64,000 nucleotides of DNA, from contig OY997651.1 of assembly GCA_963921795.1 (NCBI GenBank), forward strand, positions 56,550,142-56,614,141, read 5' to 3'. The first letter of the stretch is position 1. Every line of letters begins with the position of its first letter. Below the pieces are notes generated by a model, which searched no databases, was not told the origin of the DNA, and saw only the letters and a list, made by a program, of their open reading frames with translations. The stretch is from Nannobrachium achirus (taxonomy: Eukaryota > Chordata > Actinopteri > Myctophiformes > Myctophidae). Positions 1-64,000 of this stretch are shown one piece after another. The position numbers and the translations under genes were made by a program.

Positions 1-29
1 TGCTTAGTTCAGTGTGGTATCGAGCACCG

Positions 30-92
30 AAAATAGCCGACCTCCAAGCTCACAATGTGTCGCAGCGCGACGTGTTGTGAGCTTGGAGGCCT
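30..92. repeat. Core hairpin, E variant (CCTCCAAGC arm)
   Basis: Inverted repeat with arms GACCTCCAAGCTCACAA and TTGTGAGCTTGGAGG around a GTCGC/GCGAC tip. The usual TCTACAAGC arm is CCTCCAAGC here, and the partner arm carries the matching change. The left flank (TGCTTAGTTCAGTGTGGTAT) recurs at 43973 and, inverted, at 38605, so this is the internal part of an F-type hAT element. The right outer stem is lost. Confidence 0.75.
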
Positions 93-129
93 TGCCTTGT
101 CTCACACAAGTCACCACAGTCTCGTCTCA

Positions 130-375
130 TGTGTTGGGGTGAGCCTTAGCCACAACGGCCAATCAAAAAGACTGTACTACTGGCCAATCAGGGCGCGTCT
201 TTTCCGGCACTTGGCAAAACACATAACAGCATAACATCTGTTTAGCAGAGTGTGGTGGCTTGTGTGCGACAACCAAGGCATGGATGTGTGTCTGTGTGTA
301 ATGATAACTAACAGATTGATGCAAATAAATCACTTTTGACCACAACAAATAGTGTAAGTAGCCATATGCTTATAG
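130..375 (-). mobile_element. U-family fragment
   Basis: Closely resembles 1745-1980, including two CCAATCA boxes around an ACTGTACT core and the ATAGTGTAA-type arm. It is an incomplete copy without recognisable ends. Confidence 0.6.
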
Positions 376-422
376 CAGACCTGGGCATTGTGCGGTCCGG
401 CAGTGGCGTCAGTTCAGAAAAA

Positions 423-485
423 GCTAAGGTATGGCAACATGACTGGTGTCTTGTCAAGACACCAGTCATGTTGCCATACCTTAGC
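423..485. repeat. Perfect 63-bp palindrome
   Basis: Two 31-bp arms are exact reverse complements around a single T (arm begins GCTAAGGTATGGCAACATG). The left arm continues the repeat that at 33422 reads GCTAGGGTATGGCAAAGATG and is not palindromic there. The right arm therefore looks like a recent inverted copy of ordinary sequence. An assembly or library fold-back artefact is possible. Confidence 0.85.
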
Positions 486-960
486 AACAGGAACATTTAT
501 TTTAAAACTCATTCATTGCCTTTTCAAGATGGCCGCCAAGTACCAGGATGCCACGTTCCTAAATTTCTAGTGCACGGATCAATTTCTAGTGCACCATATG
601 TGTAGTACTTTTTCACAGCTTTCAAACAAAAAAATCCGCTTGGAAATCCGTTCAGGCATTCATGAGATAGAAGCCTTCAAAGTCAAACAAAACAAACAAA
701 CATGGCTGCCATTTTGAAAGATGTGTTTGGTATGGGGCTAAACATGCAATTTCGCGATTGCGATCATGCCTAATTCATTTTAGGCATTTTTGGATTTTTT
801 TTTTTTTTGAAAAAAAAAAAGATTTTGAAAAAAAAAAAATATATATATATTTTTTTTTTTATTTTTGTTAAAATTGCTGCCAACTCGGGAAACTCGGGCT
901 GTGGCAGTCTGGGGTTACTGAAATAACACGGGAAACTCGGGCCTGGCATTTAGTACATTC
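486..960. other. No gene seen
   Basis: AT-rich sequence with a direct repeat of TTTCTAGTGCAC (566-596) and an A/T low-complexity stretch at about 790-868. No coding potential or transposon end was recognised. Confidence 0.6.
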
Positions 961-1045
961 TATTCTTTCCCCCGTTTCTACGGTTTCTTGGGCTGGATAT
1001 GGCAGCCTGGAATGGTTGTTCAAGTGCAGCTACGCATTGGATGTT
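961..1045 (+). repeat. Fragment shared with 33605-33690
   Basis: Contains TTCTACGGTTTCTTGGGCTG and GGTTGTTCAAGTGCAGCTA, repeated almost exactly at 33617-33677. It is an interspersed repeat of unknown class. Confidence 0.6.
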
Positions 1046-1199
1046 GTCTCAATAATGCTGGGTTTTTTACACAAATTGGTCTGCTAAGTATTTATTTACT
1101 GAAGTCGGAAGTAAAGCTGTGTGTTTAGTTTGCAACTTATTTTTGCTATGTTTGATTTGTTCTTTTCTTATTTAAATAAAAAATGAAATCTTCCCCATA

Positions 1200-1271
1200 G
1201 GGGTGCTGGAACACCTGCAGCACCCCTAGTTCCCATGCTGTTCCCAAGCTCCTGCACAGTGGCCACTGTGC
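1200..1271. repeat. Short inverted repeats
   Basis: AGGGGTGCTG pairs with CAGCACCCCT around a 9-nt loop, and 1254-1271 is a perfect 18-bp palindrome (GCACAGTGG CCACTGTGC). The first resembles a hAT terminus but no partner end was found. Confidence 0.5.
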
Positions 1272-1577
1272 CAAAACATCACATTCACTTTCTCTTTCAG
1301 CGGTGTGGAGATGCGCAGAAGCAAAGAAAGTCACCACAGTTTGATTTGATCATTGCTTAGTCAATTATGAAGGGATTTTAAAAATTAAAACGTCTCCATA
1401 TTGCTTGGGAAGTCTGTGGCCTTTGCGATTCGCTAATCGCGTGATTTCGCATCGCGATTTCAGTTTGAAAACGATTAACCATGCAGCAGTAGTTCTTTTC
1501 TGCTGAGGAGGGGGCGGTGGGGGGCCTTTTTGGTCGGCGGGGCCCTACGCAGTCTGCGTAGTCTGCGTATACGGCCT
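1272..1577. other. No gene seen
   Basis: Mixed sequence with a tandem AGTCTGCGT (1550-1567). No feature was recognised. Confidence 0.5.
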
Positions 1578-2558
1578 GCCAGCGCTGTCTGTCATAGCAT
1601 AGAGTGGAGCCTATAAGCCTATAGCTTTTACACTATTTGTTGCAGTCAAAAGTGATTTATTTTTCATGAATGTGTTACTATTTGTCGTTACAAACAGATC
1701 CATGCCTTGGTTGTCCTACATAAGCCACCAAAAATCTCATAAATCATGTTTTGGGGTGAGCATTTGGTACAACTGCCAATCAAAGTGACTGTACTGGCCA
1801 ATCACAGGGCATCTTTTCAGGGACTTGGTAAAACACATAAAAGCATATCATCTGTTTAGTGTGATGGCTTTTGTGGGACAACAATGGCATGGACGTGTTT
1901 GTAATGACAACTAGTACCACATTCATGCAAAATAAAAACACTTTTGACCACAACAAATAGTGTAAAAAGCTTATAGGCTCCACTCTTTACTATGATAGAT
2001 TTTGGGTTCTGCTGGGGAAACTGAACAACAGGGGCATTTGTGCCTAATAGGGTATATATATGCACATACGCCATTTTGTTCTACTTCCGGGTGTCTTTGG
2101 ACTTCCTTCACAGGTGTTACCAATGATACTAATGAAGGGTCTGTTCCATTCTGCTCAAACAGAGTCACGGTGCTGCTATTGTGCATGTTGGCTCACTGGA
2201 AACACTCTGCTACACCAGTGGGTCTCAACGTGTCCTTAAGTGCGTTCCAAATGTCCCCATACAGGTGTGTAACTCTGAGAATGTACTAATGGAAGCAAAT
2301 TGACCCGCGAGGGTCCATTTGATTCCATTTGTACAGAGTTATGGGGGTCCTTGAAATTAAAGAACCACTGTACAATAAATCAAACAGAGCCTAATTAGTA
2401 TCATCAGTAACACCTGTGAAGGAAGTCGAAAGACACCCGGAAGTAGAACAAATTGACGTATGTGCATGTACCCTATAGACCCCATGGACAGTAATTTTGG
2501 ATCAATATACTGTATGTAGGGAAATGAGCCTAGAAGTGATTTAGGGCGGAGTTGTCCT
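1578..2558 (+). mobile_element. U element, TTAA type, left end lost
   Basis: The right terminus reads GGGCGGAGTTGTCCT followed by TTAA (2559-2562). The left terminus of the family is seen at 61356 (AGGACAACTCCGCCC after TTAA). Internal inverted arms at 1605-1680 and 1915-1985 (TTTACACTATTTGTTG) make most of it fold back. It carries the nested element at 2050-2474. Confidence 0.7.
2050..2474. mobile_element. Nested inverted-repeat element
   Basis: Arms of about 88 bp (2050-2137 and 2387-2474) share TTCTACTTCCGGGTGTCTTT and CTTCCTTCACAGGTGTTAC. The flanks CTAATA/TATAGACC rejoin to the uninterrupted U sequence at 61431-61437 and 29834-29842. The loop holds a further degraded hAT-like segment (CAGTGGGTCTCAA to GAACCACTG, 2216-2370). 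Confidence 0.65.
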
Positions 2559-2562
2559 TTAA

Positions 2563-2878
2563 GTGCAGCCAGCTATTAAAGAATCCACAACTTTCTTGCG
2601 AGGGCGGAAGTTTAATGCAACCATGGTCACGTTAACCTCTTTAGGGGGGAAACTATCTTTATACGCTCCTGACTTTCACACTCTTGGAGACTTTTAAATT
2701 AGCCAATTTCACGGCTGATCCCTCACCTCGAAACATGGTTTATTGAGACGAAGCCTAAATGGGCCTATGGTGTTGACAGTAGCCAGTGGTATGTTCCTTT
2801 AATGAGACCCTTCAGCCCACTGCTTCCCACAGGCCATTTAATGAGCCCTGGGGTGCCGTGGCTGAGAGTGAGAATGTG
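2563..2878. other. No gene seen
   Basis: Apparently single-copy within the window, with no long open frame or repeat. Confidence 0.5.
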
Positions 2879-3343
2879 CAGGGGTGTCGCACCAAATTCT
2901 AAGTTACATTTTTGCTGTAACTTGCTGGTAACTGAGTTACAATCATATTTATGTAACTCGTCAAGTAACTGAGATACATTTTTGTTACAAGAAGTTACAA
3001 GCAAAGTCATAATTTTACATTTAAGTTTTGTAAAGATTGATGATCAAAATGTTTAGCTCTATTTTAGGAACAGATAATTACTTGAGAAAATGTCAACCTT
3101 TTTGAAATAAAACAAAACTCAGTTGAGAGGCATCTTTCTGCTGGCATGTGACTTTTTTTGTAGAATATTATATTTTGTAACCATGTACACCAAATGTACA
3201 TGACAAAAGTAACTCAAGTTACGTTTTCTATGTACCGGTAACTTGAAACTTTCTAAGTTACATTTCTCATGGTGAGTTACTTGTAACTGTACAAGTTACC
3301 CTTTCAATGTAACCCAACACTGACTGCGGGCCCCCATGAATGT
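2879..3343 (+). mobile_element. I-family end invaded by GTAACT-rich repeat
   Basis: Begins with the I terminus CAGGGGTGTCGCACC and ends with its internal ACTGCGGGCCCCCATGAATG. In between is a roughly 410-bp AGTTAC/GTAACT-rich repeat (2901-3313) that replaces the expected GGGCCCTGGGTAC segment. Confidence 0.55.
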
Positions 3344-3700
3344 TGTGGTGGAATTCAGATCAAATCAATAATCGTGAGAAAATGAGGAGACAAGACAATT
3401 ATATTAGGTGGTGGTGGTGTTCAAGTTTATGTAACATGATATCATGGACAGAAGTACAGTTAACACTCAGGACACACAGGTCAGTGGTAAAGTAGTTCTG
3501 CCCAGAAGAATTGTCAGACACAAGAGTTATAATGTGTGGCTCCAAGGCCTCTGGGACGAGCTGTACCATAACAAGATAGGCTTTACCAAAACAAAAGCTA
3601 CTCAGTCCTAGACTCTTACAAGCTGTACAGTATCAATGATGTGTAATTAGGCTAGATATTAATATAATCAATGAACACACACATAATCAATCACCCCACA
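3344..3700 (+). mobile_element. Putative solo LTR, copy 1
   Basis: Starts TGTGGTGGAATTCAG and ends CCCCACA. It is about 90% similar by eye to 37810-38152. Flanking 4-mers are ATGT and ATCT (3 of 4 match). TG...CA ends in both copies suggest a solo LTR, but there is no internal region to confirm it. Confidence 0.45.
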
Positions 3701-3709
3701 ATCTGATCA

Positions 3710-3965
3710 AGATTCCATAGAGTTTCATTGTTTGACAGCACAATCATCAGTGTATTTTGGATTCATGTCAGTTTGTGTTTTCAGATATTTAACCACTTGA
3801 ATCGTCAATACGTAATAAACTTGGCCTTTCACTCTGTACTTAGTCTGCTCTTTTTTCCCCTCTACACCAAAGCTGTTTGCTAAAAATAGCTGATCTACAA
3901 GCTACAAGATTGTAGCTATTTTTGTCTAAAGTTCTCCGAATATGGACGCTAGGGTTCAAGTGGTT
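3710..3965 (-). mobile_element. G-family fragment with short core hairpin
   Basis: Resembles 13180-13310 and 19440-19620 on the opposite strand (TTCAAGTGGTTAA, TTGACAGCAC). The CH at 3882-3920 is reduced to AAAATAGCTGATCTACAAGC with a partner of TTGTAGCTATTTTT. Confidence 0.6.
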
Positions 3966-4019
3966 AATATAAAAAAGGGAAGAAAAAAAAACAGGTTTCT
4001 AAAGGCTATCTAAAAGAAC

Positions 4020-4270
4020 CAAGAGTGGCAGCCGACCTGGCATTTACCATTGTTCCCTATTGAGCTTGGCACATTTCCTGGGGCAAGCTGCCCAGATCAC
4101 TCATGTCACTCGTGTCTTCTTGTTTTTTGCTTGCCTCCTGTGAATTTTTTTTTTGTTTGTTTATTTTCTGTTTATTTTGTTGCTGAGTGAGGTCAGCAGA
4201 CAACGTGACGTGGGTGAGATGAAAAAAAAACCTGGGTGAAATGTGCCAATCTCAACAAGAAACAACGGTA
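4020..4270 (+). repeat. H-family interspersed repeat
   Basis: Shares GGCACATTTCCTGGGGCAA, TGCTTGCCTCCTGTGAATT and GTTGCTGAGTGAGGTCA with 21225-21500. The ends are inverted repeats of GAGATTGGCACATTT. It is probably a MITE of unassigned class. Confidence 0.5.
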
Positions 4271-4527
4271 TGTAAACATAATACAAACACTGAGGACAGT
4301 GTGCGGGGACGATCGAATGTGGTGCAATTTGGAAGCACACATGCACGTCTGTAGGCTATTTACTTTACTGCACGCAATCACGGGTACCCGCGATATATCC
4401 TCAAAAGTGTACTTGAATACAGTACTCGAATACATGTACTTAGTTACTTCACAGCTCCACACAGAAGAGCTGTAACTGCCAGTGGTGGAAAAAAGTATCA
4501 ATACTGCAACATAGAAATACTCTGTTA

Positions 4528-4687
4528 GGGTGCCCTCACACCAAAGTACCTATGAGAGTGGAATCAATGAGAGTGAAGCGGTTTCATGCCAGCAGAGTAT
4601 TTCTGCAAAAAAACGCTCCCTTCTCATTGAAATGCATTGGCGGAACGTGGATTCCACTCTCATAGGTATTTTGGTGTGAGGGCACCC
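4528..4687. mobile_element. Harbinger-like MITE, 160 bp
   Basis: Terminal inverted repeats of about 38 bp with one mismatch (GGGTGCCCTCACACCAAA). Flanked by TTA on both sides (4525-4527, 4688-4690), and the empty flanks rejoin as CTGTTACAAGTG. A 3-bp TWA duplication with GGG termini fits PIF/Harbinger. Confidence 0.85.
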
Positions 4688-4792
4688 TTACAAGTGAAAG
4701 TCCGGAATTCAAAATGTAGCCTACTCGAGCAAAAGTAAGAAAGTATTGGCATCAAAATGTACTTAAAGTACCAAAAGTAAAACTACAAAACG

Positions 4793-4871
4793 TTTGAAAA
4801 TAGCAGATCTACAGCCTCATAACGCGTCGTGATGCGACGTGTTGTGAGCTTGTAGATAAGCTATTTTCAAA
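4793..4871. repeat. Core hairpin in R element
   Basis: The outer stem TTTGAAAATAGC pairs with GCTATTTTCAAA. The tip is AACGCGTCG/GCGACGTGTT. The host R copy at 23507-26600 has a hairpin in the same flank (26380). Confidence 0.85.
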
Positions 4872-5091
4872 TAACAACAGTATAAAATAAGGCAAAATGG
4901 TTTATGTTATTTTATAATAATATAATTTATATCTTTAAAGTAACTAGTAACTACAGTTTTCAAATAATTGTAGTGGAGTAAAAGTACAATATTTGGATCA
5001 GAGATGGTGTAATAGAAGTAAAAGTATTGGAAATTGAAAATACTCATAAGTATACAAATACATCATAAGTGTACTTAAGTACAGTACTTAA

Positions 5092-5372
5092 AGGGGGCCT
5101 GTCACCTAAAGGGTTACTGTCACTTTAAGAATCATCTTAAAAAACAAGTTAATATTTGTATGATGTCATTGTGGGGATGTGCAATTATAATAAGCCGATC
5201 AAATTAATTGCCTGTGTAGCCTGACTGTATGACTACTTACTGTGCAGGTCAGCTGTTGTTGGGGGGCGAGGGGCAGATTACACTGTGACATGAGCTTCAG
5301 ACTGACCGTTCTCAGAGAAGCTCACGTCACAGTGTAATATGCCCCTCAACCCCTTTAGGTGACAGTACCCCT
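5092..5372. mobile_element. TTAA-type element, 281 bp
   Basis: TTAA lies on both sides (5088-5091, 5373-5376). Termini AGGGGGCCTGTCACCTAAA and its partner TTTAGGTGACAGTACCCCT pair with two mismatches. A second internal inverted repeat, ATTACACTGTGACATGAGC, lies at 5277-5338. piggyBac or Kolobok type. Confidence 0.8.
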
Positions 5373-5438
5373 TTAAGTAAATGTACTTGGTTACTTACAC
5401 CACTGGTAACTACACATGAAGACATTATTATGCTAGAG

Positions 5439-5988
5439 CAGGGGTGGGCAGCTTTGATGATGGTGAGGGCCACTATATTTCCACCTTCGCTCCAGAGGGC
5501 CACATTACATATTGCTACGTCCTACTTTGTCATTCTAGTATCTCATACAAAAGAGGCAAAAAAATAGCAGATCTACAAGCTCAAAACGCATCGCGCTGCG
5601 ATGCGTTTTGAGCTTGTAGATTGGCTATTTGTTGCTTCTTTTGAATTGGAATCCTGAATAATTTTTGTTATCTTTGAATTGGAATCCTGAAATGTAACAT
5701 TTTGATTAAATTTCAAACACATTTAATGATATACTCATGTTAACTTTATGAACTTGAATACAAATACATTGGACATTAAAAATATATATATATATATATA
5801 TAATAATACTACTATACTAGTCATTAAGCTACTAATATAGACTGAAGGAATTAAAGCAGGTCATGTTTGGAATTGCAACAGCTGAAATCAATAATACATC
5901 GATCAGTATTCCAGTATTAACCTGAGGGCCACATTAAGTGAAGGTGGGGGCCGCATGTGGCCCCCGGGCCGCCAGTTGCCCGTGTATG
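5439..5988 (+). mobile_element. C element, hAT type, 550 bp
   Basis: Begins CAGGGGTGGGCAGC and ends GCCCGTGTATG. Flanked by TGCTAGAG (5431-5438) and CGCTAGAG (5989-5996). An opposite-strand copy is at 60017-60446 and a fragment at 18885-19038. It contains a core hairpin and a (TA)n run at 5782-5802. Confidence 0.85.
5549..5641. repeat. Core hairpin, AAAACGCATCGC variant
   Basis: Arms CTCAAAACGCATCGC and GCGATGCGTTTTGAG pair perfectly, so both arms differ from the usual CTCACAACGC. The outer stem AAAAGAGGCAAA pairs imperfectly with TTGCTTCTTTT. Confidence 0.9.
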
Positions 5989-5996
5989 CGCTAGAG

Positions 5997-6288
5997 TCTC
6001 CAAACACTGCAGTCTTTGCTTTGAACTTGAAGCAATGATGCAGCACTGTTGTTCTCCCCTCAAGGGGAATTGCTTCCGTTTTGTCTCTTGTTGGAGTGGA
6101 GTGGATGATAATAATATGGCAAGAAACAGCACATTCATCCAGTGAATGGACTAGACTGACTTACGGGGATATCCAAGCAATGAGTCATACCCCTGCAAGG
6201 CAGTAAGCTGCACATTCAGAGCACAGACAGAGTGACTCACACTTTTACAAAGTGCCAGGGGGTCCCCAGCTAAATGACTTAAACCATT
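5997..6288. other. No gene seen
   Basis: Apparently unique sequence between two transposons. There are short open frames on both strands but no homology that I recognise. Confidence 0.5.
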
Positions 6289-6292
6289 TAGA

Positions 6293-6693
6293 CCGGGTAC
6301 GTTTTATTATTTTATGCGTTTAACTATTGAAAAATAGCGACCCGATTTTGACCCGATTCCTTTTGAATCCTTCAAAGGTTTTTTTTTGAAAACCATATGT
6401 TTCTATGTCAGTGGATCTCAAAGTTTTTCATGTGAAGGACCCCCAAAATGATATGTATTTGGCCACAGACCCCCCATCTCAAAATATTTAGTTCCAGGGA
6501 CCCCCAGAAGCAAAATTTGAGTTACAAACGTTCGCTTTAAAAATACTATTCAAAAGATTTGCACACATATTCACGACTTTTTCAAAAATACCAGATCTAC
6601 AAGCTCGCAGTGCGGCACTCGGTGCCGTGCTGTGAGCTTGTATATTGGCTATTTCAATAGTTAAAGCATTCAATAATTCTAGGCATAAACGAC
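6293..6693 (+). mobile_element. B element, degenerate copy
   Basis: TTAA lies on both sides (6289-6292, 6694-6697), with ends ACCATTTAGACCGGG and AGGCATAAACGAC. The interior has GTGAAGGACCCCCAAAATG and CTCAAAATATTTAGTTCC as in the other B and I copies. The left hairpin is reduced to AAAAATAGCGACCCG. Confidence 0.75.
6581..6657. repeat. Core hairpin, GCGGCAC variant
   Basis: Arms GCTCGCAGTGCGGCAC and GTGCCGTGCTGTGAGC form the B-type tip. The outer arms are TTCAAAAATA and TATTTCAA. Confidence 0.8.
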
Positions 6694-7307
6694 TTAATAT
6701 AGTGTCACAATAACCATTTTAACCATCTTTTATACTTTGACTGTTGGAAAAATAGCAGATATTTCAGCTGGATTCTACAGACAAACATGAAGCCTATTTT
6801 AGAGCGATTTCAAATCCGCCACCTTGTATATCCTGCCCAGAAATACAACTGGAAAACAAATCAAATGAATCCTATTGTCTGGAGGGCGGGCCTTCGCTCA
6901 GTAGAACCAGTAGAAAACCTTAGCCTCGCGTAGCCAGACGAATTTGCCATTGCAAAGAAAACTTGCCCTTGGCAGATTAGGTCTGGCCCTGAACAGTTCA
7001 TAAAGTGTAAAACAATATGGACAGTGGAAAGCCTATGCTTTCTATGCTGCGCAAATTAAGCTTTTTTGCCCATTTTATGGGTGCCGCCATCATTGTAGAA
7101 ATCAACGTTCATTGGTAGAAATGGTACCATCTCGAATGCTATTGGCTGCCAACGGTCACGTGCAACCGCAGGGATACATGGGACATTGTCATGAGCTTGG
7201 CGAAAATAAAGCACACGAAGAAGAATCATCACAAGCCTATGATCACAAGCCCCTCCTACAGCATACCCTGCTATAACATCAAATATAACATAAATTGGAC
7301 CATATTT

Positions 7308-7686: not shown

Positions 7687-8119
7687 AGACCCAGCTAAAT
7701 TGGTGTTATCAGACGCTAGAGTTGTTGTCCCATTAACTTTACATTACAGGAAAAAAAAGCTAAAAATGAATCTGCTTTAATTAGCATAAGAGGGGTCCAA
7801 CTAGGGGGTTTTCATGATGCTGAATCCATTGCAAGCATCTGTTTTGCACAAAAAACATTCATTGGGCTAAAAACTGTCCCACAAGACTATGGTTTAGTGA
7901 TGAGTCATCACTTTTCACACTGTTGTGGGGGGCGTTTTAGCCCCACGGATGTTTTTCGTGCAAAACAGATGCTTGCAATGGATTCAGCATCATGAAAACC
8001 CCCTAGTTGGACCCCTCTTATGCTAATTAAAGCAGATTCATTTTTAGCTTTTTTTCCCTGTAATGTAAAGTTAATGGGACAACAACTCTAGCGGCTGATA
8101 ACACCAATTTAGCTGGGTC

Positions 8120-8120
<1 letters not shown>
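7687..8120. mobile_element. Long foldback element
   Basis: Arms of about 185-200 bp (AGACCCAGCTAAATTGG ... AGATGCTTGCAATGG inverted) are nearly identical around a loop of about 50 bp (7888-7934). No ends with a clear target duplication were found. Confidence 0.8.
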
Positions 8121-8906
<786 letters not shown>

Positions 8907-9312
8907 CCGTTTGCCTCCGAGATGTACTACATTGTACGTCCACAAAACCAGCCCTATCAGGTCTAAGAAAGGGTTATCATACCAACATATAATCTACTGA
9001 TATAGAGCTTTTATAAAATGCATGATAACCTTTGCCACCTTTTTGATACCGACATCTCGTCTGGCCCATGGACTATATGGAGAACATGTTGCTTCTGGTG
9101 CCAGAACAGCGCAACTAACAGCGCCAATCATAGGAACTTTCAGTTCCGTGTTTGCTTCGTTTTAAATCGGGACAACTGCACCCCTGGTTCAAACCAAATG
9201 GTCCATGTGAACACGTGCACAAAACCACACACAAATTGCCTTACATACTGTACACATTGTACATACTGCAGCCACAGCACATAGTACGCTTAATCTAACA
9301 ACATAGAACATA

Positions 9313-9498
9313 GTCACTGTCGGGCAGAAACCTCGTATCTCCAAGTTTCAAATGTGTTCCTTGTGTGTTCCTTGTTTTTCCGGCGTTGTGTGCTTGTAGA
9401 TCGGCTGTTTTCACTAGTTAAAATCATTCTTAAAATCAAATGCTAAATGCAAAACGAACGGTTTTGGACATACAAGGTTTCCACCCGACAACGACAAT
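9313..9498 (-). mobile_element. A element, internally deleted
   Basis: Termini GTCACTGTCGGGCAGAAACC and GGTTTCCACCCGACAACGAC are the A-family inverted repeats. Only the right half of the hairpin is kept (GGCGTTGTGTGCTTGTAGAT, 9382-9401). Confidence 0.8.
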
Positions 9499-9539
9499 AT
9501 CCAGCAACACACCGTCTGTATGCCGAGGGTGTGTAACAC

Positions 9540-9541
<2 letters not shown>

Positions 9542-9620
<79 letters not shown>
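9542..9620. repeat. (CA)n microsatellite
   Basis: Uninterrupted CA. Confidence 0.99.
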
Positions 9621-9623
<3 letters not shown>

Positions 9624-9741
9624 TCTTCCAGACTAACGACCACTGCACGGTGACAGCTGGTGGGCGTCCATAGCCGGCACACGATATATAAATTACAACA
9701 CTTTTCAGACTAATTGGACCACGGAGAGAGGGAATACTCAC

Positions 9742-9849
9742 GTGATTTGCGACGGAGGTCAAGGACGCCGCGGAACGGGGCAGGAATCCTGCTGGTCTAG
9801 CGTCCGTACGCGTACGAGGTGGCAGGCGGGGCGAGGGGCGGCGAAGACG
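9742..9849 (-). other. Candidate internal exon, minus strand
   Basis: Read on the minus strand, CTCTAATTGACAG precedes and CAC|GTGAGTATT follows a 108-bp segment (36 codons). The segment is open in one frame (basic, Arg/Pro-rich) and richer in CpG than its surroundings. Acceptor and donor both fit consensus. I recognise no protein, and chance is quite possible. Confidence 0.15.
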
Positions 9850-9926
9850 CTGTCAATTAGAGGATGAAGACAGTGTGAGTGAGGCGTGTTAGAATGGACG
9901 TTGTCAGATCCAAAATTGCCATATCC

Positions 9927-10110
9927 AGGGTTCCCACGGTCATGACATTCCTGGAAATATTTTGAAATTAGAAAAATATTTTTTTCCAGTACTGGAAAAG
10001 TTTTGGAATTGATCAAGGGTCCTGGAAAGTCCTGGAAAAAATAGCTATGCATTGTTTTTGGTTATTGATTTTGTTAATACCTCAGAAATGACAAATTAAA
10101 CATTGGCGAA
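9927..10110 (+). mobile_element. hAT-like fragment
   Basis: Begins CAGGGTTCCCACGGTCATG, a familiar fish hAT-type terminus, followed by CCTGGAAA repeats. The other end was not found. Confidence 0.45.
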
Positions 10111-11970: not shown

Positions 11971-12398
11971 TAGGGATGGGACAATATGAAAATTTCATAT
12001 CACGATTATTGTGACAAGAAATCGTGATTTACGATATTATCACGATAATCAAAATCCATTATCCTGGGGCGGAACATTTGCCAAAAAAATAGCAGATCTA
12101 CAAGCTCACAACGCGTCGCATTGCGACACGTTGTGAGCTTGTAGATCGGCTATTTTTTGGGCAAATACATTTGATAGAGAGTTGAACAAAACTATCAAGT
12201 ACCTATATTATAAGTACCTTTTACCAATTATAGAGGGTTTAAGTGTACCGGATATGCAGCTCGGCAAATAAAAGGTGAATTGATCGCAGTGCATGACGGA
12301 GGACGATATCACAATAAATTAAATCTCCACGATACGATTATCGTGAGTGTTTTTTATCACGATAAACGATAATATCGCGTATCGTCCCATCATCCCTA
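11971..12398 (+). mobile_element. D element, hAT type, 428 bp
   Basis: Termini TAGGGATGGGACAATATG and ATCGTCCCATCATCCCTA. It is inserted in a GT repeat with GTGTGTAT (11963-11970) and GTGTGTGT (12399-12406) as the probable duplication. Confidence 0.8.
12077..12165. repeat. Core hairpin in D element
   Basis: Full copy: outer stem TTTGCCAAAAAAATAGC / GCTATTTTTTGGGCAAA, tip ACGCGTCGC ATT GCGACACGT. The left arm has GCAGATC and the right arm pairs as GCCGATC, so one mismatch is conserved. Confidence 0.95.
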
Positions 12399-12613: not shown

Positions 12614-12717
<104 letters not shown>

Positions 12718-14366: not shown

Positions 14367-14690
14367 ATAAGGACTATATACACAAACGTACCGTTACAAC
14401 TGAAGACGTTGATATGCATGAAAGCCCACACATATTTGAAAGAAAAATGTGTACAATCGGCAAAACCAAAAGTGACATTTTTAAACGAGATACACGAGTG
14501 CTCATTTCGCTGTAGCACACACATGGAATTTGCCATTCCCATGCTTGCTCCCGCTAGCAACAGATTGGGTCATGATCGTGATCCACAGACAAGAAGAGCG
14601 GTACACAGTGGACCGTGTGGCTCATACATGGGAAACTGTCCGATTGTAGATCAGCTATATTTTTTCTATTTTGACTATCTAATATCATAT

Positions 14691-14947
14691 CGTCGTTGTC
14701 GGGTGGAAACCTTGTATGTCCAAAACTGTTCGTTTGTATTTATCATTTTAAAAAAAAGTCTAAACTATAGTGAAAATAGCCGATCTACAAGCACACAACG
14801 CCTTGCGATGCGAGGCTGTGTGCTTATAGATCGGCCATTTTCACTAGTTTTGTGGGACACTCTTCCATGATGAAGCAGGGCTTTACCTTACAAAATAAAT
14901 TACAAATTTGAAACTTGGAGATACAAGGTTTCTGCCCGACAGTGACG
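14691..14947 (+). mobile_element. A element, 257 bp, full length
   Basis: Termini CGTCGTTGTCGGGTGGAAAC and TTCTGCCCGACAGTGACG. Flanking 4-mers are ATAT and ATTT. The core hairpin lies at its centre and the right half reads ATGATGAAGCAGGGCTTTAC as in the other copies. Confidence 0.85.
14765..14849. repeat. Core hairpin in A element
   Basis: Outer stem ATAGTGAAAATAGCC / GGCCATTTTCACTAG; arms GCACACAACGCCTTGCG and CGAGGCTGTGTGC with one base lost. This is the A-type arm (CACACA rather than CTCACA). Confidence 0.9.
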
Positions 14948-15009
14948 ATTTACTTTGTTTGTACTTTGCCCAGCCCCCAAAATGGAACGAAGGCCGACAT
15001 TTTATTTAT

Positions 15010-15113: not shown

Positions 15114-15248
15114 ATGAGTGTGAAAAGATAGTGGCCCTCTCCATCATCCAAGTTGCCCACCCCAGCAGATGACCTGCAGGACCTCCTCTCTCAGCAGATG
15201 CGGGGGGAAAAATACCAGATGCCAACTCAGCTCCGCCTTGGGTCTTAA

Positions 15249-15768: not shown

Positions 15769-16040
15769 TTAACCTCCACAGCGGGAAGTGCAGGGCCCTG
15801 AGAGTCAACGCTGCCAGCATAGCATCCATCATGCCGGGCGAGGCCATAAGCGCTGGAGGAGGAAGCCCACGAGTTCAGCCAACTTGGCAGCGGGTGTCGT
15901 CAACAAGCAGCGGGCGGTGCAGTTGCTTATGCCAGTGGTTCTCAACATGTCATTTCATTCCATGTATGTCTTTATTTCGAACATTTAACCCATTTAGAAC
16001 GGGTACACATATTGTGTATCATTATTTTATGCTTTAACGA

Positions 16041-16119
16041 TTGAAAAATAGCAGATATACAAGCTCACAGCGCGGCACCGAGTGCCGCGCTGCGAGCTTG
16101 TAGATCTGCTATTTTTGAA
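16041..16119. repeat. Core hairpin, left one of B
   Basis: Arms AGCTCACAGCGCGGCAC CGA GTGCCGCGCTGCGAGCT, outer stem TTGAAAAATAGC / GCTATTTTTGAA. Confidence 0.95.
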
Positions 16120-16446
16120 AAATCATGAAAATTAGAATTTTGACCCGATTCTATAAGTGTCTTTTGAATCCTTCTAAGATTTTTTGAAAACCCTAATAGT
16201 TTCTACAGTATGTCAGTAATCTGACCAGCCATCGTCAAAGAAAAGGTCCTTTTCACTTAACTGGAGTTCAGTTAGTCTGTTCTTGAGAGACTACTATGTC
16301 AGTGGTTCTCAAACCTTTTCATGTGAAGGAACCCAAAATGATATTTATTTGGCCACGGACCCGCATCTCAAAATATTTAGTTCCAGGGACCACTCTGCTT
16401 TGAAAATACATATATTCAAAGATTTGCACACATTTTCATGACTTTT

Positions 16447-16510
16447 TCAAAAATAGCAGATCTACAAGCTCGCAGTGTGGCAGCTGTGAGCTTGTATCTG
16501 CTATTTTTCA
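16447..16510. repeat. Core hairpin, right one of B, shortened tip
   Basis: CTCGCAGTGTGGCAGCTGTGAG has lost part of the tip. The outer stem is TCAAAAATAGC / GCTATTTTTCA. Confidence 0.85.
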
Positions 16511-16551
16511 CTGGTTAAAGCAGTCAATAATTCTAGGCCTAAATGGGTTAA

Positions 16552-19811: not shown

Positions 19812-20149
19812 CAGGACTGTCACGATTCATTTTACCTGACGATTAAGTGTCACTCAAATAATTGCAGCGATTAACTATTTCATTGTGTGGAATATATGAA
19901 TAAAAATATATATTTCTGTTTGGCTTTTAGGAGTTTTAAGTTGCAAAGGGTAGATTACAAAATGACTACTGTAAATATACAAATAAATGACTGACATATT
20001 GAATAACTTTATTCAATACCATTACCATTAGTGGATCGTTTTTTCATGAGAATGTTTCAACATGAAAACGAGAATGACGATTATGCAAAATAATTGTGAT
20101 TATCTCACAATTGTGTTTGGGCGATTATGTAATACTTGTGACAAGCCTA
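19812..20149 (+). mobile_element. P element lacking the core hairpin
   Basis: Ends CAGGACTGTCACGATT and ACTTGTGACAAGCCTA, collinear with 49192-49613. Where the other copy has TAGTGGA-hairpin-TCCACTA this copy reads CATTAGTGGATCG (about 20027-20039) with no second TCCACTA. Confidence 0.75.
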
Positions 20150-20491
20150 CTACTGTACTACTACTACTGTATTTCCATACAGTAGGCGTGTAGATCCACG
20201 TGTGTGAAAATACTTTCACAAAAGCCTGAGTAGATGTTAAAATGGCCCCACGCATGCTTGAAAGTACAATATCCCTCTAAAGAGTCTGATTCTAGTCCAG
20301 TGCAATTCATATTGATATTTCATGATTGCATAAACCATCATCAAACGGTATGTTAGTGAGACCCCCATCACTTCACTTCATTATGCATAGACATGCATAA
20401 TGTTTGTTTGGCCGCGCGTATGGAGGAAATATCCTACTAATAAACGACCGAATGACTGTCTGTCTGTCCGATGTCTGTCTGATATACACGC

Positions 20492-20969
20492 TAGGGCATT
20501 AACGAAAAAGTCGACAAGTCGACTCATTCGACTTCATTACACAAGACGACTCCCACCAGAGAAAGTCGAAAGTCGAAGTAAAAAAATAAAAACATAAACT
20601 TTCTATTGTGAAAACAGCAGATCTACATGCTCACAACGCATCGCGATGCGAGGCGTTGTGAACATGTAGATCGTCTATTTTCACAATTTCTGCCTCTATA
20701 GATTAGACAATTTGGACCATTTTTAATCTGCCATTTTAGAGGTATTAAAAAGTCCTTAAATTGGCACTTTAGAAATGTGAAGATACCCTCTATACACTTA
20801 AACTTTATGTTGGTTGGTCACATTAAGTTAATCATCTGGGGACCCCCCAAAATAATTGGGGGGGTCGTGTGTGATGTGATGACGTCATCCAACGATAAAG
20901 TCGTCTTCAACTCAACTTTTTACTGAGTCGAGTCGACTTGCAAAAATTACACAAGTCGTTAATGCCCTA
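20492..20969 (+). mobile_element. L element, hAT type, 478 bp
   Basis: Ends TAGGGCATTAACGAAAAAGT and AAGTCGTTAATGCCCTA. Flanks ATACACGC and GTACACAC match 6 of 8. Rich in AGTCGAC repeats. Second copy at 56594. Confidence 0.85.
20605..20688. repeat. Core hairpin in L (ATGC arm)
   Basis: Outer stem ATTGTGAAAACAGC / GTCTATTTTCACAAT. Inner arm CTACATGCTCAC with partner GTGAACATGTAG, so the A-to-T change in CAAGC is mirrored in the other arm. Confidence 0.92.
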
Positions 20970-20979
20970 GTACACACTT

Positions 20980-26379: not shown

Positions 26380-26440
26380 CTCTGAAAATAGCAGATCTAC
26401 AAGCTCACAATGTGTCGCATCGTGACGCATTGTGAGATTG
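26380..26440. repeat. Core hairpin in R
   Basis: GAAAATAGCAGATCTACAAG with partner ATTGTGAGATTGT; tip TGTGTCGC ATC GTGACGCA. The right outer arm is lost. Confidence 0.8.
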
Positions 26441-26627
26441 TCGCCAAAATGTATATAGGATGTATATAGGATAGGATTGAAGTGGGTATGATGTATGTAT
26501 GATTTGTGATAATAATCCAGACATCTACAAAGTAATAAGTAACTCAATATAACTCAAATAATTGTAGTGGAGTACAATATTTAAATATAAATTATATATA
26601 TACAATAATTATAAAAGCACAATCTTT

Positions 26628-33394: not shown

Positions 33395-33690
33395 TGTCTT
33401 AGCAGACCTCAGTGGCGTCAGTTCAGCAAAAGCTAGGGTATGGCAAAGATGGGAGTCCTCATGGAAAAGACGCGTTACATTTTGTATAACACGGTTCTAT
33501 TGTGAAAATAGCAGATCTACATGCTCACAACGCCTCACGCTGCGAGGCGTTGTGAGCATGTAGATCGGCTATTTTCACAATGTCTGAAAAAAAATAGTAT
33601 TTTCAGTTTTTTACCCAGGTTTCTACGGTTTCTTGGGCTGGATATGGCAGCCTGGAACGGTTGTTCAAGTGCAGCTAAACTTAGCATGTT
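33395..33690 (+). repeat. W repeat with core hairpin
   Basis: CAGTGGCGTCAGTTCAG recurs at 403-418 and the right part recurs at 968-1040. The hairpin sits between them, whereas copy 1 has the 63-bp palindrome and other sequence. Confidence 0.6.
33499..33581. repeat. Core hairpin (ATGC arm), near perfect
   Basis: ATTGTGAAAATAGC / GCTATTTTCACAAT outer stem; CATGCTCACAACGCCTC with GAGGCGTTGTGAGCATG. Same type as in L elements although the host is different. Confidence 0.95.
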
Positions 33691-43562: not shown

Positions 43563-43732
43563 TTGCTGTCCAGGCACGTGCAGACATAGACATCAAAGGG
43601 GGCTTGAGCCCCTGCCCTTTTATCCGTCTGTTAAAAGTGCCCTCTCCAGACCATGAATGCAGTTTTTACTATGGTGAAAGAAATGCAAATGCCCCTCTTT
43701 CCATGCCATACCTGAAGGCAGCATTCAAGTTG

Positions 43733-43852
43733 TGGACAGGTGGACAGGTGATGAGAATTAGCATGTGTGCTAATCACTTGTATCAATGCATCTGGTTTGT
43801 CCAATGTAATTGTGATGTCCATGACAAATAAATAAAACATAACATAACATAA
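43733..43852 (+). mobile_element. Possible truncated LINE 3' end
   Basis: Insertion of about 120 bp relative to 39030-39070, ending AAATAAATAAAACATAACATA, a short repeated tail typical of retroposed DNA. No coding part. Confidence 0.45.
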
Positions 43853-44001
43853 GAGAATTGCCTTGTCCAAACTCTCCCGAACTTGAATGCAGCATCTTAT
43901 ATTGAAAGAATTGCCCTCTCTGTGTGGAAGTCCATGCTGTTACGCCACATCTCCAGTATTGGCTTCATTATGCTTAGTTCACTGTGGTATTAAGTACTGA
44001 A

Positions 44002-44052
44002 AATAGCCGACCTCCAAGCTCACAATTGGAGCGTGGAGGTCTGCTATAATTC
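44002..44052. repeat. Core hairpin, E variant, tip deleted
   Basis: GAAAATAGCCGACCTCCAAGCTC paired with GGAGGTCTGCTATAAT. Confidence 0.8.
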
Positions 44053-44179
44053 AATGTTTTCAACAAAGCACCTTTTAGAAATGTCATCCCCTGCCTCTCT
44101 AATGTTCTCTGCACGTCCCTGTTGCTGTCGGGCAGAAACCTCTTATCTCCATAATGTAACTTTGTGTCAGGGATCTCCA

Positions 44180-48366: not shown

Positions 48367-48475
48367 TGTTCCACCTCTGGATAATGGATTTTGATTATCG
48401 CGATAATAGCGTAAATCGCGATTTCTTTTGTCACAAAAATCGTGATATGAAATTTTCATATCGTCCCATCCCTAG

Positions 48476-48815: not shown

Positions 48816-48829
48816 TTTTCACCATAAAC

Positions 48830-49029
48830 GATAATTGTATCGTGGAGATTTAATTTATCGCGATATCGTCCTCCGTCATGCACTGGAATCAATTCACCTT
48901 TTATTTGCCGAGCTGCATATCCGGTACCACTTAAACCCTCTAGAATTGGTAAAAGGTACTTGATACAGTCTTTCTTTCACTCTCTATCAAATGGCTTTGA
49001 CCAAAAATAGCTCGAGCTTGTAGATCGAA
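48830..49029 (-). mobile_element. D fragment joined to G-like end
   Basis: ATTGTATCGTGGAGATTT to CTATCAAATGGCTTTG is D; a minimal hairpin AAAAATAGCTCGAGCTTGTAG follows, then GGTTCGAGTGGTTAAA of G type. Confidence 0.65.
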
Positions 49030-49191
49030 TAGGAATGCAGGGTTCGAGTGGTTAAACGTCAAACATAAGTTATTTTCAGTCAGTTCTGATGGAAACGGAT
49101 ATTTCTCTGTCTCTCAGGTGGAAAGATTTACATATATTTACTCATACTTCGGATAATAGGATGTAAGATTCTAAAAATTAACAGTTGTAAT

Positions 49192-49613
49192 TAGGGCTGT
49201 CACGATTATGTCATTTTACATGACGATTAATTGTCACTCAAATAATAGCGATTAACGATTTCATTTTGTTTTTTGTGGTTGACAATTATATTACCGTTTG
49301 GCTTTTAGGCTTTGAAGTTGCACACGGCAGATATGACACGTAACCTAAATATACAAAGAAATTAATGACTGACATATTTGACAACGTTGTACTTAAAAAA
49401 AAGAACATTGATAGTGGAAATAGCCGATCTACAAGCTCGCAACGTGTCACAAATTGTGAGCTTGTAGATCGGCTACTTCCACTATATTTGAAATGTTTTC
49501 AACATGTAAACTATTATGACGATTATGACAAAATAATTGCGATTATGTCAAATAATTGCGATTATGTCAAATAATTGCGATTAGACGATTATGTAATAAT
49601 TGTGACAGCCCTA
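49192..49613 (+). mobile_element. P element, hAT type, perfect GTTGTAAT duplication
   Basis: TAGGGCTGTCACGATTA to AATTGTGACAGCCCTA; GTTGTAAT at 49184-49191 and 49614-49621. 422 bp with the core hairpin. Confidence 0.93.
49411..49485. repeat. Core hairpin in P
   Basis: Outer ATAGTGGAAATAGCC / GGCTACTTCCACTAT; tip reduced (AACGTGTCACAAATTGTGAG). Confidence 0.92.
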
Positions 49614-52620: not shown

Positions 52621-52636
52621 TCAAACAAAACAAAAA

Positions 52637-53010: not shown

Positions 53011-53433
<423 letters not shown>

Positions 53434-56593: not shown

Positions 56594-57076
56594 TAGGGCA
56601 TAACGAAAAAGTCGACAAGTCGACTCAGTCGACTTCATTACACAAGTCAACTCCCACCAGAGAAAGTCGATGTTGAAAGAAATAATAACAATACTTTCAA
56701 TTGTGAAATTTGCAAATTTTGCCTTGCGATGCGAGGCGTTGTGAGCATGTAGTTCGGCTATTTTCACAATTTCTGCCTCTATATATTTGACAATTTGGAC
56801 AATGTTTAATTTGCCATTTTAGAGGTATTAATAAGTCTTTAAATTGGCACTTTAGAAATGTGAAGATACCTTCTATACGCTTAAACTGTATGTCGATTTG
56901 TTTACAGTTGAGTGAGAAAACAATGTTTCACATTAAGTTAATCATCTGGGGAGCCCCCAAAATAATTGGGGGATCGTGTGTGATGTGATGACGCCATCAA
57001 ACGATAAAGTCGACTTCAACTCAACTTTTTACTGAGTCGAGTAGACTTGCAAAAATCATAAGTCGTTAATGCCCTA
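56594..57076 (+). mobile_element. L element, hAT type, 483 bp
   Basis: TAGGGCATAACGAAAAAGTC to AGTCGTTAATGCCCTA; CTAAGCAC (56586-56593) and CTAAGTAC (57077-57084). Confidence 0.9.
56699..56774. repeat. Core hairpin in L, left arm eroded
   Basis: ATTGTGAAAT / ATTTTCACAAT outer arms; right arm GAGGCGTTGTGAGCATGTAG intact. Confidence 0.8.
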
Positions 57077-59645: not shown

Positions 59646-59732
59646 CTTGCCAAAAGTGGCCGATCTACAAGCTCACAGCAACTCGCATCCGCGTCTCTGC
59701 GCCGCGTTGTGAACTTGCAGATCGGCCACCTT
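59646..59732. repeat. Core hairpin in a distinct flank
   Basis: GTGGCCGATCTACAAGCTCACAG with GTTGTGAACTTGCAGATCGGCCAC. The flank matches no other copy in the window. Confidence 0.85.
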
Positions 59733-60016: not shown

Positions 60017-60446
60017 CATACATGGGCAACTGGCGGCCCGGGTGCCACATGCGGCCCCCGCCTTTGCTTAATGTGGCCCGCAGGTTAACATGACCTGCTT
60101 TAATTCCGTCAGCTTAATGACTAGTAGTATTAAAATGTATTATTTTTTATGTCCAATGTATTTGTATTTAAGTTCATAAAGTTAACATGTGAATATAACT
60201 ATAATGCGTTTGAAATTAAATCAAAGTGTTACATTTCAGGATTCCAATTCAAAAGAAACAAAAATAGCCGGCCTACAATCTCAAAACGCATCGCAGCGCG
60301 ATGCGTTTTGAGCTTGTAGATCTGCTATTTTTGCTTCTTTTGTATGAGATACTAGAATGACAAAGGACACAGCAATATGCAATTTGGCCCTCTGGAGTGA
60401 AGGTGGATAGTGGCCCTCGCCATCATCAAAGTTTCCCACCCCTCCT
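60017..60446 (-). mobile_element. C element, opposite strand
   Basis: CATACATGGGCAACTGG to TTTCCCACCCCTCCTG; flanks match only 5 of 8. Confidence 0.8.
60251..60341. repeat. Core hairpin, AAAACGCATCGC variant
   Basis: AAAAGAAACAAAAATAGCC / GCTATTTTTGCTTCTTTT outer; CAAAACGCATCGC AGC GCGATGCGTTTTG. Confidence 0.95.
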
Positions 60447-62249: not shown

Positions 62250-62330
62250 TGTGTCCGGGTGGCGCGTTGGTAAAGTGCCTTGACCTCGACCGCGGAGGCG
62301 CATGCAGCTTCGTCAAGTGGCTACACCAGG
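62250..62330 (+). mobile_element. tRNA-derived SINE head, fragment
   Basis: GGGTGGCGCGTTGGTAAAGTG resembles a pol III box A-like tRNA head (TGGCNNAGTNGG). The remainder is replaced by the AA element. Confidence 0.45.
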
Positions 62331-62336
62331 GGTTTT

Positions 62337-62847
62337 CAAAGTGGGTGACGGGGCACCCGGGGATGCCGCAACGGCAGTCCAGGGGTGCAGCCAGATAATT
62401 TGATAATATTTGGAATTCATTTGGACATTTGAAAAAATATTTAGTATGATTTTAAACTTAAAGTACAAAGTTATTTTCAGTCAGTTCTAACCAAAATGGC
62501 TGTTATCTCAACGTTTTCCTCGCAACATAATCATTGAAATATCGTCACTGCCGGTCATTTGGTAAAGCAAGGCCCTGTTTCATCATACAAGACTGTCGCA
62601 CAAAACTAGTGAAAACAGCCTATCTACAAGATGCGAGGCGTTGTGTGCTTGTAGATCTGCTGTTTTCACTAGTTTAGTACATTTTATAGATGATAATTAC
62701 AAAACGAACGGTTTTGGACATACAAGGTTTCCACCCGACAACGACCTTATGCTAGGTGCTGGGAGTGAGAATTATAGTGTAGGGGAGCCTCGGATTAAAA
62801 CAAATATTTATGGGGTGCCCTGAGACAAAAAAGTTTGGGAGCCCCTG
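62337..62847 (-). mobile_element. AA element, hAT type, containing A
   Basis: CAGGGGTTTTCAAAGTG to GTTTGGGAGCCCCTG; GGCTACAC and ATCTACAC flanks match 6 of 8. A lies at 62543-62745. Confidence 0.8.
62604..62675. repeat. Core hairpin in A, left inner arm lost
   Basis: ACTAGTGAAAACAGCC / GCTGTTTTCACTAGT outer arms with TATCTACAAGATGCGAGG between. Confidence 0.9.
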
Positions 62848-62855
62848 ATCTACAC

Positions 62856-62945
62856 CAGTGGTTTGCAACCTCTTTTCACATCAAGGTCCATTATTTATTT
62901 GGCATTCGAGCCACGGACCACCCGATGACATTTAGCCTCTCAGAC
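62856..62945 (+). mobile_element. hAT-like end (CAGTGGTTTGCAACC)
   Basis: Begins exactly after the 8 bp ATCTACAC that flanks AA. The other end was not found. Confidence 0.55.
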
Positions 62946-63104
62946 CGAAAACGTATAAATGTTGTTATCGTCGGCTACGATTTTGTCCACAACTCCGTGC
63001 TGTATTGACGTGGAATCAAAGGAGAGACAACAGGCCCACATTGATCCAAATATCAATTCCTCTACATTCAATTGTGTAGACTTCTTGTAAATTAAGTAAT
63101 ATGA

Positions 63105-63175
63105 AGAACATTCATGGGGGGCCCGCAGTGAATCCTTGTACCCAGGGCCCAGAATTTGGTGCGACAGCCCTGCGT
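63105..63175 (-). mobile_element. I-family end fragment
   Basis: TCATGGGGGGCCCGCAGTG to GGTGCGACAGCCCTG. Confidence 0.75.
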
Positions 63176-63339
63176 GCGTGAACAATGCCTTGGCAGCATT
63201 CCACTCCCACTCTGCCTCTCTCCACTGAATGATTTGAATAAATCACATTCTGTCCTCCTGTCAGACGGAGGAGAGGCTCAAGGTAAATTGAAGAGTCGAC
63301 TCGACTTCTCCATCTCAGGCATCGCATACGCATGCCGGG

Positions 63340-63556
63340 TAGGGATGGGACGATAAGTGATAGTATAGTTTATCGTGATAAAAAAAACACTCGCGATAAA
63401 CGTATTGTGAAGATTTTATTTATCGTGATATAGTCCTCCGTCATGCACTGGGATCAATTCACCTTTTATTTATCCGAGCTGCATATCCAGTACCACTTAA
63501 ACCCTCTAGAATTGGTAAAAGGTAATAATAATGTACGTACTTGATAGTGTTTTTTT
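63340..63556 (+). mobile_element. D element, left half
   Basis: TAGGGATGGGACGATAAG to ACGTACTTGATAGTG, collinear with 47774 onwards. Shows the intact CCACTTAAACCC site. Confidence 0.8.
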
Positions 63557-63913
63557 TAGGGCTGGGACTTTAACTGATTAATTGTGATTAATTAATTGCA
63601 GAAAATGTATGCGATAAAAAAATGATTACGCATTTTAAATCGCACTTTGTTTTTGCAACACAGAACCTTCAGTTTCGGGCATACCGATCATAGCGATGCA
63701 CCAACCAAGAAGAGACAACAAACGCAAAGGGAGAAGTAGCCGATCAGAGTGCTTTGCTTGGCCCAGTGGGTGCGAAATTTAGATTTAAAAAACTCACTTA
63801 TTGATTCACTCATACAACAAAATGTGTTTTACTTGAAAAATAAAATGCTTCTCGGGTCAAATGTTAATATGCGATTAAAATGTGATTAATTGCGATTCAT
63901 TAATTACAAAGCC
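63557..63913 (+). mobile_element. hAT-like element (AGGGCTGGGAC)
   Basis: AGGGCTGGGACTTTAACTG and TGTGATTAATTGCGATTCAT with a decayed AAGCCTG end. Rich in GATTAATT. Confidence 0.5.
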
Positions 63914-64000
63914 TGTAATGAATTCATTTTCTTTTCTTTACATATCTACTGCATAGTACTGTGTTCTATTCGTCTGTCATTCAATGTTATATGAGATACT

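Follow-up and report, generated by a model that had tools for sequence, protein, structure and literature searches.

Rickettsia palindromic elements place one hairpin in unrelated hosts, as is the case for the module described here, but there the hosts are genes and the genomes are bacterial. Miniature inverted-repeat transposable elements (MITEs) of the hAT and TTAA (piggyBac-like) superfamilies and the Angel elements of teleosts are miniature and often palindromic, and each MITE family is usually regarded as having descended separately from an autonomous parent of its own. Here, we describe a hairpin module of about 71 bp, denoted CH, in a stretch of 64,000 nucleotides from Nannobrachium achirus (GenBank assembly GCA_963921795.1, contig OY997651.1, positions 56,550,142 to 56,614,141 of the forward strand), the whole of which is referred to as the window. 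MITEs of the hAT and TTAA types are the hosts of CH, which forms an internal module of several such elements rather than a family with ends of its own. The reading tentatively preferred is that CH was captured repeatedly by the founders of MITE families.

The GC clusters of yeast mitochondria (GC42) are, like CH, short palindromes in many copies that merge and shuffle with other hairpins; their mobility was inferred from their distribution, and in the excerpted account they are mitochondrial, mostly intergenic and not described as parts of transposons, unlike CH (PMC4478555). Hairpin-forming repeats of the mitochondria of sponges, and those of Allomyces cited with them, also spread within a genome, but according to the excerpts of that source they occupy organelle genomes and are without transposon hosts; the Allomyces hairpins are said there to be without flanking duplications, and larger blocks can be copied along with a hairpin (PMC2800124). 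Bacterial repetitive extragenic palindromic (REP) sequences and REPINs share with CH the short palindromic unit, the many copies and the tie to mobile elements, but for REPINs a tyrosine transposase, RAYT, is proposed as the mover in the excerpts of those reports (PMC3116915, PMC3733652, PMC1525189). Templated hairpin repair, or template switching, is an established mutation process in which one event could give both the compensated arms of CH and new inverted flanks; it is, unlike CH, a process and not an element, and spread between loci is no part of it in the excerpted source (PMC8794818). A CH-like module was absent from the titles and abstract openings listed by searches of open-licence literature; repeat libraries were outside this scope and may list CH. 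CH sequence strings matched five papers, which by title are unrelated.

The hairpin and its abundance

The arm TAGCMGATCTACAAGCTC was searched in the window with up to three mismatches, which gave 75 matches compared with a mean of 0.06 (maximum 1) in 100 shuffles. When up to five mismatches were allowed, 87 arms were obtained and grouped into 59 units, with both arms in 28. An arm with at most three mismatches is present in 51 of the 59 units; seven of the remaining eight are single-arm units, which may be chance matches. From TAGC to GCTA the two-arm units measure exactly 63 bp in 17 cases, less in ten and more in one. A covariance model was built from 19 copies and found 38 sites in the window, these 19 among them, each with a best-strand E of 0.0034 or lower (a manual count over 76 strand matches with E up to 0.1). 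The arm and covariance counts bear out the recurrent hairpin reported in the initial annotation.

The module can be written as AAAATAGC...GCTATTTT with 34 base pairs, and six copies folded as single-stranded DNA gave z values of −11 to −18. The reference copy shows the common unit of 71 bp, AAAA-TAGC...GCTA-TTTT, outside which lies a collar of its host family N3, ATTTGCC/GGCAAAT. Considered as a MITE, CH does have terminal inverted repeats, the entire unit being an inverted repeat. The reference copy and two further copies are

12086..12156, unstranded: CH reference copy, within N3; fold −44.8 kcal/mol, z −16.6
59657..59728, + strand: CH of 72 bp, both flanks unique within the window
26389..26451, + strand: CH with a left flank that recurs at 26694

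No Rfam match at gathering score was obtained over the window. With one CH copy as query all Rfam matches were below gathering, the best being microRNA-precursor hairpins at 49.9 bits versus 98, and a phage and plasmid search with one copy gave no match. The hairpin pattern had 0 matches in the viral_contigs and genome_contigs sets; the exact arm had four in viral_contigs, near chance level by a rough estimate.

In the genome of 1,658,514,493 bases, exact arms were counted at 99,136 + 99,039 = 198,175, and the arm pattern read backward, used as a control, had 0 matches. The genome was also sampled in 26 stretches of 10 kb chosen by coordinate, all at 1 or 5 Mb on their contigs (designated by L-numbers below), positions from which an extrapolated genome total would be rough. 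The covariance-model scan suggested in the initial annotation was extended to this sample and yielded 71 sites in 22 of the 26 stretches, on 18 of the 20 contigs (hand count). The sample holds 138 arms, or 34 per 64 kb, compared with 75 in the window, which is thus about twice as rich. The window belongs to a 65.4-Mb contig and the CH-bearing sampled contigs measure 60–90 Mb, so that CH is not located in an organelle. An artefact of assembly or counting can be practically dismissed: the window contains 200 N, which would speak for it, but it is already contradicted by the presence of CH in most coordinate-chosen stretches and by the zero of the reversed control.

Host families outside the hairpin

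By their ends, the hosts of CH comprise six hAT-like families (N1–N5 and N8, the ends of N8 being seen outside the window only) and two TTAA families (A and N6). The hAT-like and piggyBac-like labels are assigned from the ends; no search for a transposase was made. The hAT-like families N1, N2, N4, N5 and N8 have inverted ends and 8-bp duplications that agree at 6/8 to 8/8 positions, and A and N6 have TTAA at both ends together with inverted ends. The ends of N4 read directly as TAGGGCTGTCACG, flanked on both sides by GTTGTAAT. For P, 11 copies or part-copies were aligned and the inverted ends are clear. Additional flank families are N7 (two copies) and Z (L027 and L029). The placement of CH in hAT-type and TTAA-type families in the initial annotation is upheld by these ends; no family was confirmed in which a 4-bp duplication differs from TTAA, and the family letters of that annotation do not correspond one to one with those used here. 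The hosts are

11971..12398, + strand: host N3, hAT-like ends TAGGGATGGGAC; the flank is a GT repeat and the duplication is uninformative
48198-48474, − strand: other N3 copy
20492..20970, + strand: host N1, hAT-like ends TAGGGCATTAACG, duplication 6/8; CH at 20615-20677; contains the segment common with N8
56594..57076, + strand: second N1 copy, inside an N3 copy; duplication CTAAGCAC/CTAAGTAC, 7/8
5439..5988, + strand: host N2, hAT-like ends CAGGGGTGGGC; duplication TGCTAGAG/CGCTAGAG, 7/8; CH at 5565-5627
60017-60442, − strand: other N2 copy
49192..49613, + strand: host N4, hAT ends TAGGGCTGTCACGATT; duplication GTTGTAAT, 8/8; CH at 49421-49475
52623-52906, − strand: other CH-bearing N4 copy
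19812..20150, + strand: N4 copy without CH, the left collar AGTGGA alone kept
43571..44121, + strand: host N5, hAT ends CAGGCACGTGCAG; duplication TTGCTGTC, 8/8
15985..16551, + strand: host A, TTAA-type ends TTAACCCATTTAG; CH within both ends, at 16049-16111 and 16454-16503
3789..3967, + strand: host N6, TTAA-type ends TTAACCACTTGAA; CH remnant at 3887
near 13118 and 19505: further N6 copies
14685..14953, + strand: host P, about 260 bp, inverted ends GTCGTTGTCGGGTGGAAACC; central CH at 14777-14837
L026:7082-7451: N8, ends CAGTGGTTCTCAACC; duplication 7/8
33509..33571, + strand: CH in a truncated N8-type copy; one side common to L020, L026 and 53319-53372
4801..4863, + strand: CH in host N7; second N7 copy at L007:7723

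The place of CH varies with the host, being central in P, off-centre in N5 and near both ends in A. In N5 it is a subtype (44004-44046) with arms that are altered yet paired. The second N1 copy (arm 56743) and the N3 copy that it entered (arm 56497) each bear CH. Among the 47 repeat components of the window, 22 have no copy adjoining CH, some of these being outlying pieces of hosts such as N2 and N5.

Relatedness outside the hairpin was assessed for nine flank families (36 pairs) with CH and six bases on each side masked, using 40 shuffled comparisons. The best local score was below the shuffle maximum in 34 of the 36 pairs; A–N6 equalled it and N4–N5 exceeded it by 1 (26 versus 25). The family entered as X in this comparison is a truncated N8 copy that is missing the side shared with N1, and its pair with N1 is therefore uninformative there. 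An apparent sharing of flank between N3 and N6 was rejected. With the collar kept, 0 of 300 shuffles reach the best score, and beyond it the best score is reached by 8% and 16% of shuffles when the first 8 and 16 bases, respectively, are removed; the collar alone is common to both.

An edge profile was calculated from 11 representatives, one per flank group. Between families, identity outside TAGC...GCTA is 0.74–0.91 at bases 1–4, 0.43 at base 5 and 0.21–0.36 at bases 6–40. This collapse by the sixth outer base indicates that the families share a unit of about 71 bp that ends abruptly on either side. Within families, flank identity is roughly 75–95%. In a tree of CH copies the branches between most families are short and A stands on a long branch, with no inner branch well supported.

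With at least two superfamilies by ends and 34 of the 36 pairs unaligned outside CH, the hairpin does not belong to one family's history, in agreement with the initial annotation. The initial annotation would have given up its view if all CH-bearing families aligned outside the hairpin; they do not, the exception being one side shared by N1 and N8. Descent of all CH families as subfamilies of one parent, diverged everywhere but in the hairpin, thus appears very unlikely from these comparisons. It would draw on the hAT-like ends starting TAGGG or CAGG in several hosts, on the recurrence of the inner part of A with other ends and on the N1–N8 side; it is already contradicted by TTAA and 8-bp duplications in different hosts as well as by the unaligned pairs, and the identity of flanks within families implies that the families are too young for erasure elsewhere.

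Shared flanks, arm pairing and CH-less places

Two-arm hairpins (27 from the window and 53 from the sample, 80 in total) were sorted by both flanks. Fixed flank partners were found for N2 (4), N3 (5), N6 (5), N4 (3), N7 (2) and Z (2). Both flanks fall in the P cluster in ten hairpins and one flank does so in four. The inner side of A is combined with six different outer sides over 22 hairpins and with a unique side in four; the outer sides compared in the window are alike for about 25–30 bp before differing, so that these changes are not located at the hairpin. Both flanks are unique in 11 hairpins and one is unique in five (N1, N8 and N6 once each, N4 twice). The right flank of N1 is joined to the left flank of N8 in two hairpins, which are the two L020 copies, and N6 is joined to N3 in one.

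The N1–N8 pairing was also found around a CH remnant in L026. When N1 is aligned with these N8 copies (two in L020, one in L026), CH or its remnant is shared together with 150–190 aligned columns on one side at 75–76% identity; on the opposite side the CACAATAGAA collar alone is common, followed by divergence. The ends of N1 differ from those of N8, so a segment edged by CH is common to two hAT-like families. The two N8 copies of L020, at 6945 and 9516, resemble each other and lie 2.5 kb apart with opposite orientations, each beside a long GACA/GTCT repeat; they are perhaps an inverted duplication.

Two N6/CH/N3 chimeras were found, at 48969 in the window and at L028:3958. The former lies in

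48828..49055, − strand: chimera, an N6 end of about 30 bp (TTAACCACTCGAACCC; N6 part recognized by eye) joined inside CH to the right side of N3

L028 also contains a 2.8-kb tandem duplication (1254-7072, 98% identity), the right ends of which lie inside a CH hairpin, followed by tandem arrays at 7910-8423 and 9143-10000. Exchange between two CH copies was considered for this duplication; its other end misfits the simple version and no claim is made.

Arm pairing was analysed in 18 of the 28 full hairpins (61–63 bp) with 16 bp added on each side. Pairs changed on both sides number 24 (18.8 in shuffles), with a covariation score of 0.258 (0.128 in shuffles). When the family consensus hairpins (N2, A, N3 and P) were compared with one another, differences were one-sided in eight cases and compensated in 22; inclusion of the single copies N7, N1 and X brings the totals to 79 one-sided, 51 compensated and six unpaired. 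Copies compared with their own family consensus have 25 one-sided and two compensated changes among 477 pairs. The contrast between 8/22 and 25/2 has a Fisher p of 4e-7, calculated on non-independent pairs. Family founders mostly had matched arms, and the matching was lost in copies after insertion. This pattern can result either from selection on live elements or from arm-to-arm copying.

Collars were measured as strict complementary runs beyond the A/T run. They extend over 5–9 bases in six P copies, six bases in N1 and in the N8-type copy at 33509, and four bases in N7 and in one of the two N4 copies, the chance of a run of at least four being 0.0045 and of at least five 0.0009. The collar of the other N4 copy, ATAGTGG/CCACTAT, needs a shift or gap. 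In the sample, a run of at least four was found in 7 of 39 usable hairpins; the other 14 of the 53 were excluded for an A or T run shorter than two.

The edges of 23 units were inspected for a target-site duplication belonging to CH, and no consistent direct repeat was found. The longest repeats, ACATTTG and ACTAGT, each occur in a single copy (of N3 and P, respectively), and TTGAA occurs in two A copies; most of the units have three to five bases, at chance level. Eight CH-less places were found in the window and the sample, and none is a proven pre-insertion site. An arm piece is retained in five of them (L013, L021, L026, window 6340 with TAGC only, and window 45150), which indicates that CH-less copies are mostly deletions. 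The collar alone is retained in two, P in L025 and N4 at window 20025; the eighth is in L005. The CH-less P copy at L025:8377 reads CTAGTGA|ACTAC, a sequence close to what a palindromic target would be. The CH-less N4 copy was rejected as an empty site: one collar is retained, and identity to the CH-bearing copies is 84% and 80%, compared with 90% between these, which proves neither a gain nor a loss. CH was likewise rejected as a truncation hotspot, with 16 breaks in a CH zone of 540 bp compared with 51 in 2,017 bp (ratio 1.17, six families).

Spread of the module, and other features of the window

The explanation placed first, although with a confidence somewhat short of even, is that founders of MITE families repeatedly captured CH from older CH-bearing elements via template switching or templated repair and that host transposases multiplied the products. 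CH occupies hosts which, for most of the pairs compared, are unrelated outside the hairpin. A CH-bearing segment can pass between host families with a break at the hairpin edge, as found in N1 and N8, the direction of transfer being presumed. A polymerase or repair strand may fold back at the hairpin and copy one arm and some flank onto the other; such copying would re-match the arms and yield a host-specific palindromic collar, as the pairing and collar patterns suggest. After insertion the arms decay independently, as the one-sided changes within families show, and the copy number across the genome would probably come from host transposition. Capture is ranked ahead of self-insertion because its intermediates are observed (N1/N8 and the chimeras) and because it accounts for the collars and the re-matched arms.

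Several observations weigh against this explanation. Most families share CH without a co-transferred flank, which capture at random breakpoints disfavours, and CH is no preferred breakpoint of its hosts, as given by the ratio above. Further pair types show no excess in the 18 window hairpins (54 compared with 51.6 in shuffles), and the sample replicates the pairing contrast more weakly, with one-sided, compensated and unpaired counts of 84/28/16 between families and 70/6/9 within them (p 0.003); a post hoc exclusion of N1 and Z, which have two copies each, changes the between-family count to 10/19/0. An A–G mismatch in the stem persists across N1, N2, N3, P and N8, so arm copying is not frequent. 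The collars of N2 (CAAAAGAA) and N3 need a shift or gap, and no collar was found in five A copies, in N5 or in the units at 18338 and 59657. Capture also leaves unexplained why about ten flank families of the window hold CH; possible candidates are sheer copy number or an advantage conferred on the carrier element.

It is possible, although doubtful, that CH itself is mobile, a non-autonomous hairpin inserted by a putative enzyme preferentially at palindromic sites within other elements in the manner of mitochondrial GC clusters. The sharp two-sided edge, at the same place in all 11 representatives, would be expected of such an element, as would the very high copy number and the short branches between most families (with poor inner support and a long A branch); most pairs are without a common flank, and the CH-less P copy in L025 resembles a palindromic target. 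These points are set against the edges of the 23 units, which lack a consistent direct repeat, the CH-less places, of which five of eight are deletion-like and two collar-only, and N1, which shares CH along with flank of N8. We know of no RAYT-like enzyme for CH, and no search aimed at one was made. It seems rather improbable that CH parasitizes transposons as a self-spreading nuclear hairpin, a folded single strand that would move among unrelated MITE families with its arms rebuilt at each transfer and be amplified by host transposases. Of the spread or exchange independent of hosts put forward in the initial annotation, exchange fits better, since N1 and N8 share at least about 150 bp; self-insertion was not found, there being no consistent duplication and 0/8 proven pre-insertion sites.

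Carriage by about ten flank families would also fit a functional cis-element, aiding transposition, replication or escape from silencing, or serving as a source of small RNA, that was kept since its carriers amplify better. Such an element could account for arms that are conserved between families whose flanks are not, and for pairing kept among founders and lost in inserted copies. Nevertheless, we consider a role of this kind unlikely: the 22 repeat components without adjoining CH (outlying pieces of N2 and N5 among them) imply that it is not required, its position differs between hosts and the Rfam matches of one copy are all under gathering scores.

A module found across many families with at least two types of ends would mean that the interiors of MITEs are built from interchangeable pieces and that spread can operate at a level below the transposon, with a hairpin as its unit. 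CH would also offer a natural system with many copies for measuring arm-onto-arm copying during hairpin repair in an animal genome.

Other repeats of the window include a 63-bp inverted repeat at 423-485, which is 98% identical to its own reverse complement and is not CH; Rfam mir-3923 matches it at 48 bits, below the gathering score of 94. A long palindromic element at 17609-18111 has arms that are about 85% alike, ends ACCTCYGTGAAGTTGG and a near-duplication GTCCTGGCT/GTCCTGCCT, and is without a convincing CH. A pair of repeats in inverted orientation (15245-15710 and 31541-32007, about 90–95% identity) is without a robust CH, and both members adjoin A copies. An open reading frame at 50957-51694 (+ strand) was read as the tail of a long interspersed nuclear element (LINE); its sole Pfam match is ALKBH8_N (PF09004, E 1.4e-10), a model that we take to match LINE reading frames of teleosts. 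Long, near-perfect CA/GT and related short repeats are numerous, at 8305-8421, 12616-12715, 45976-46098 and 53013-53318 among others.

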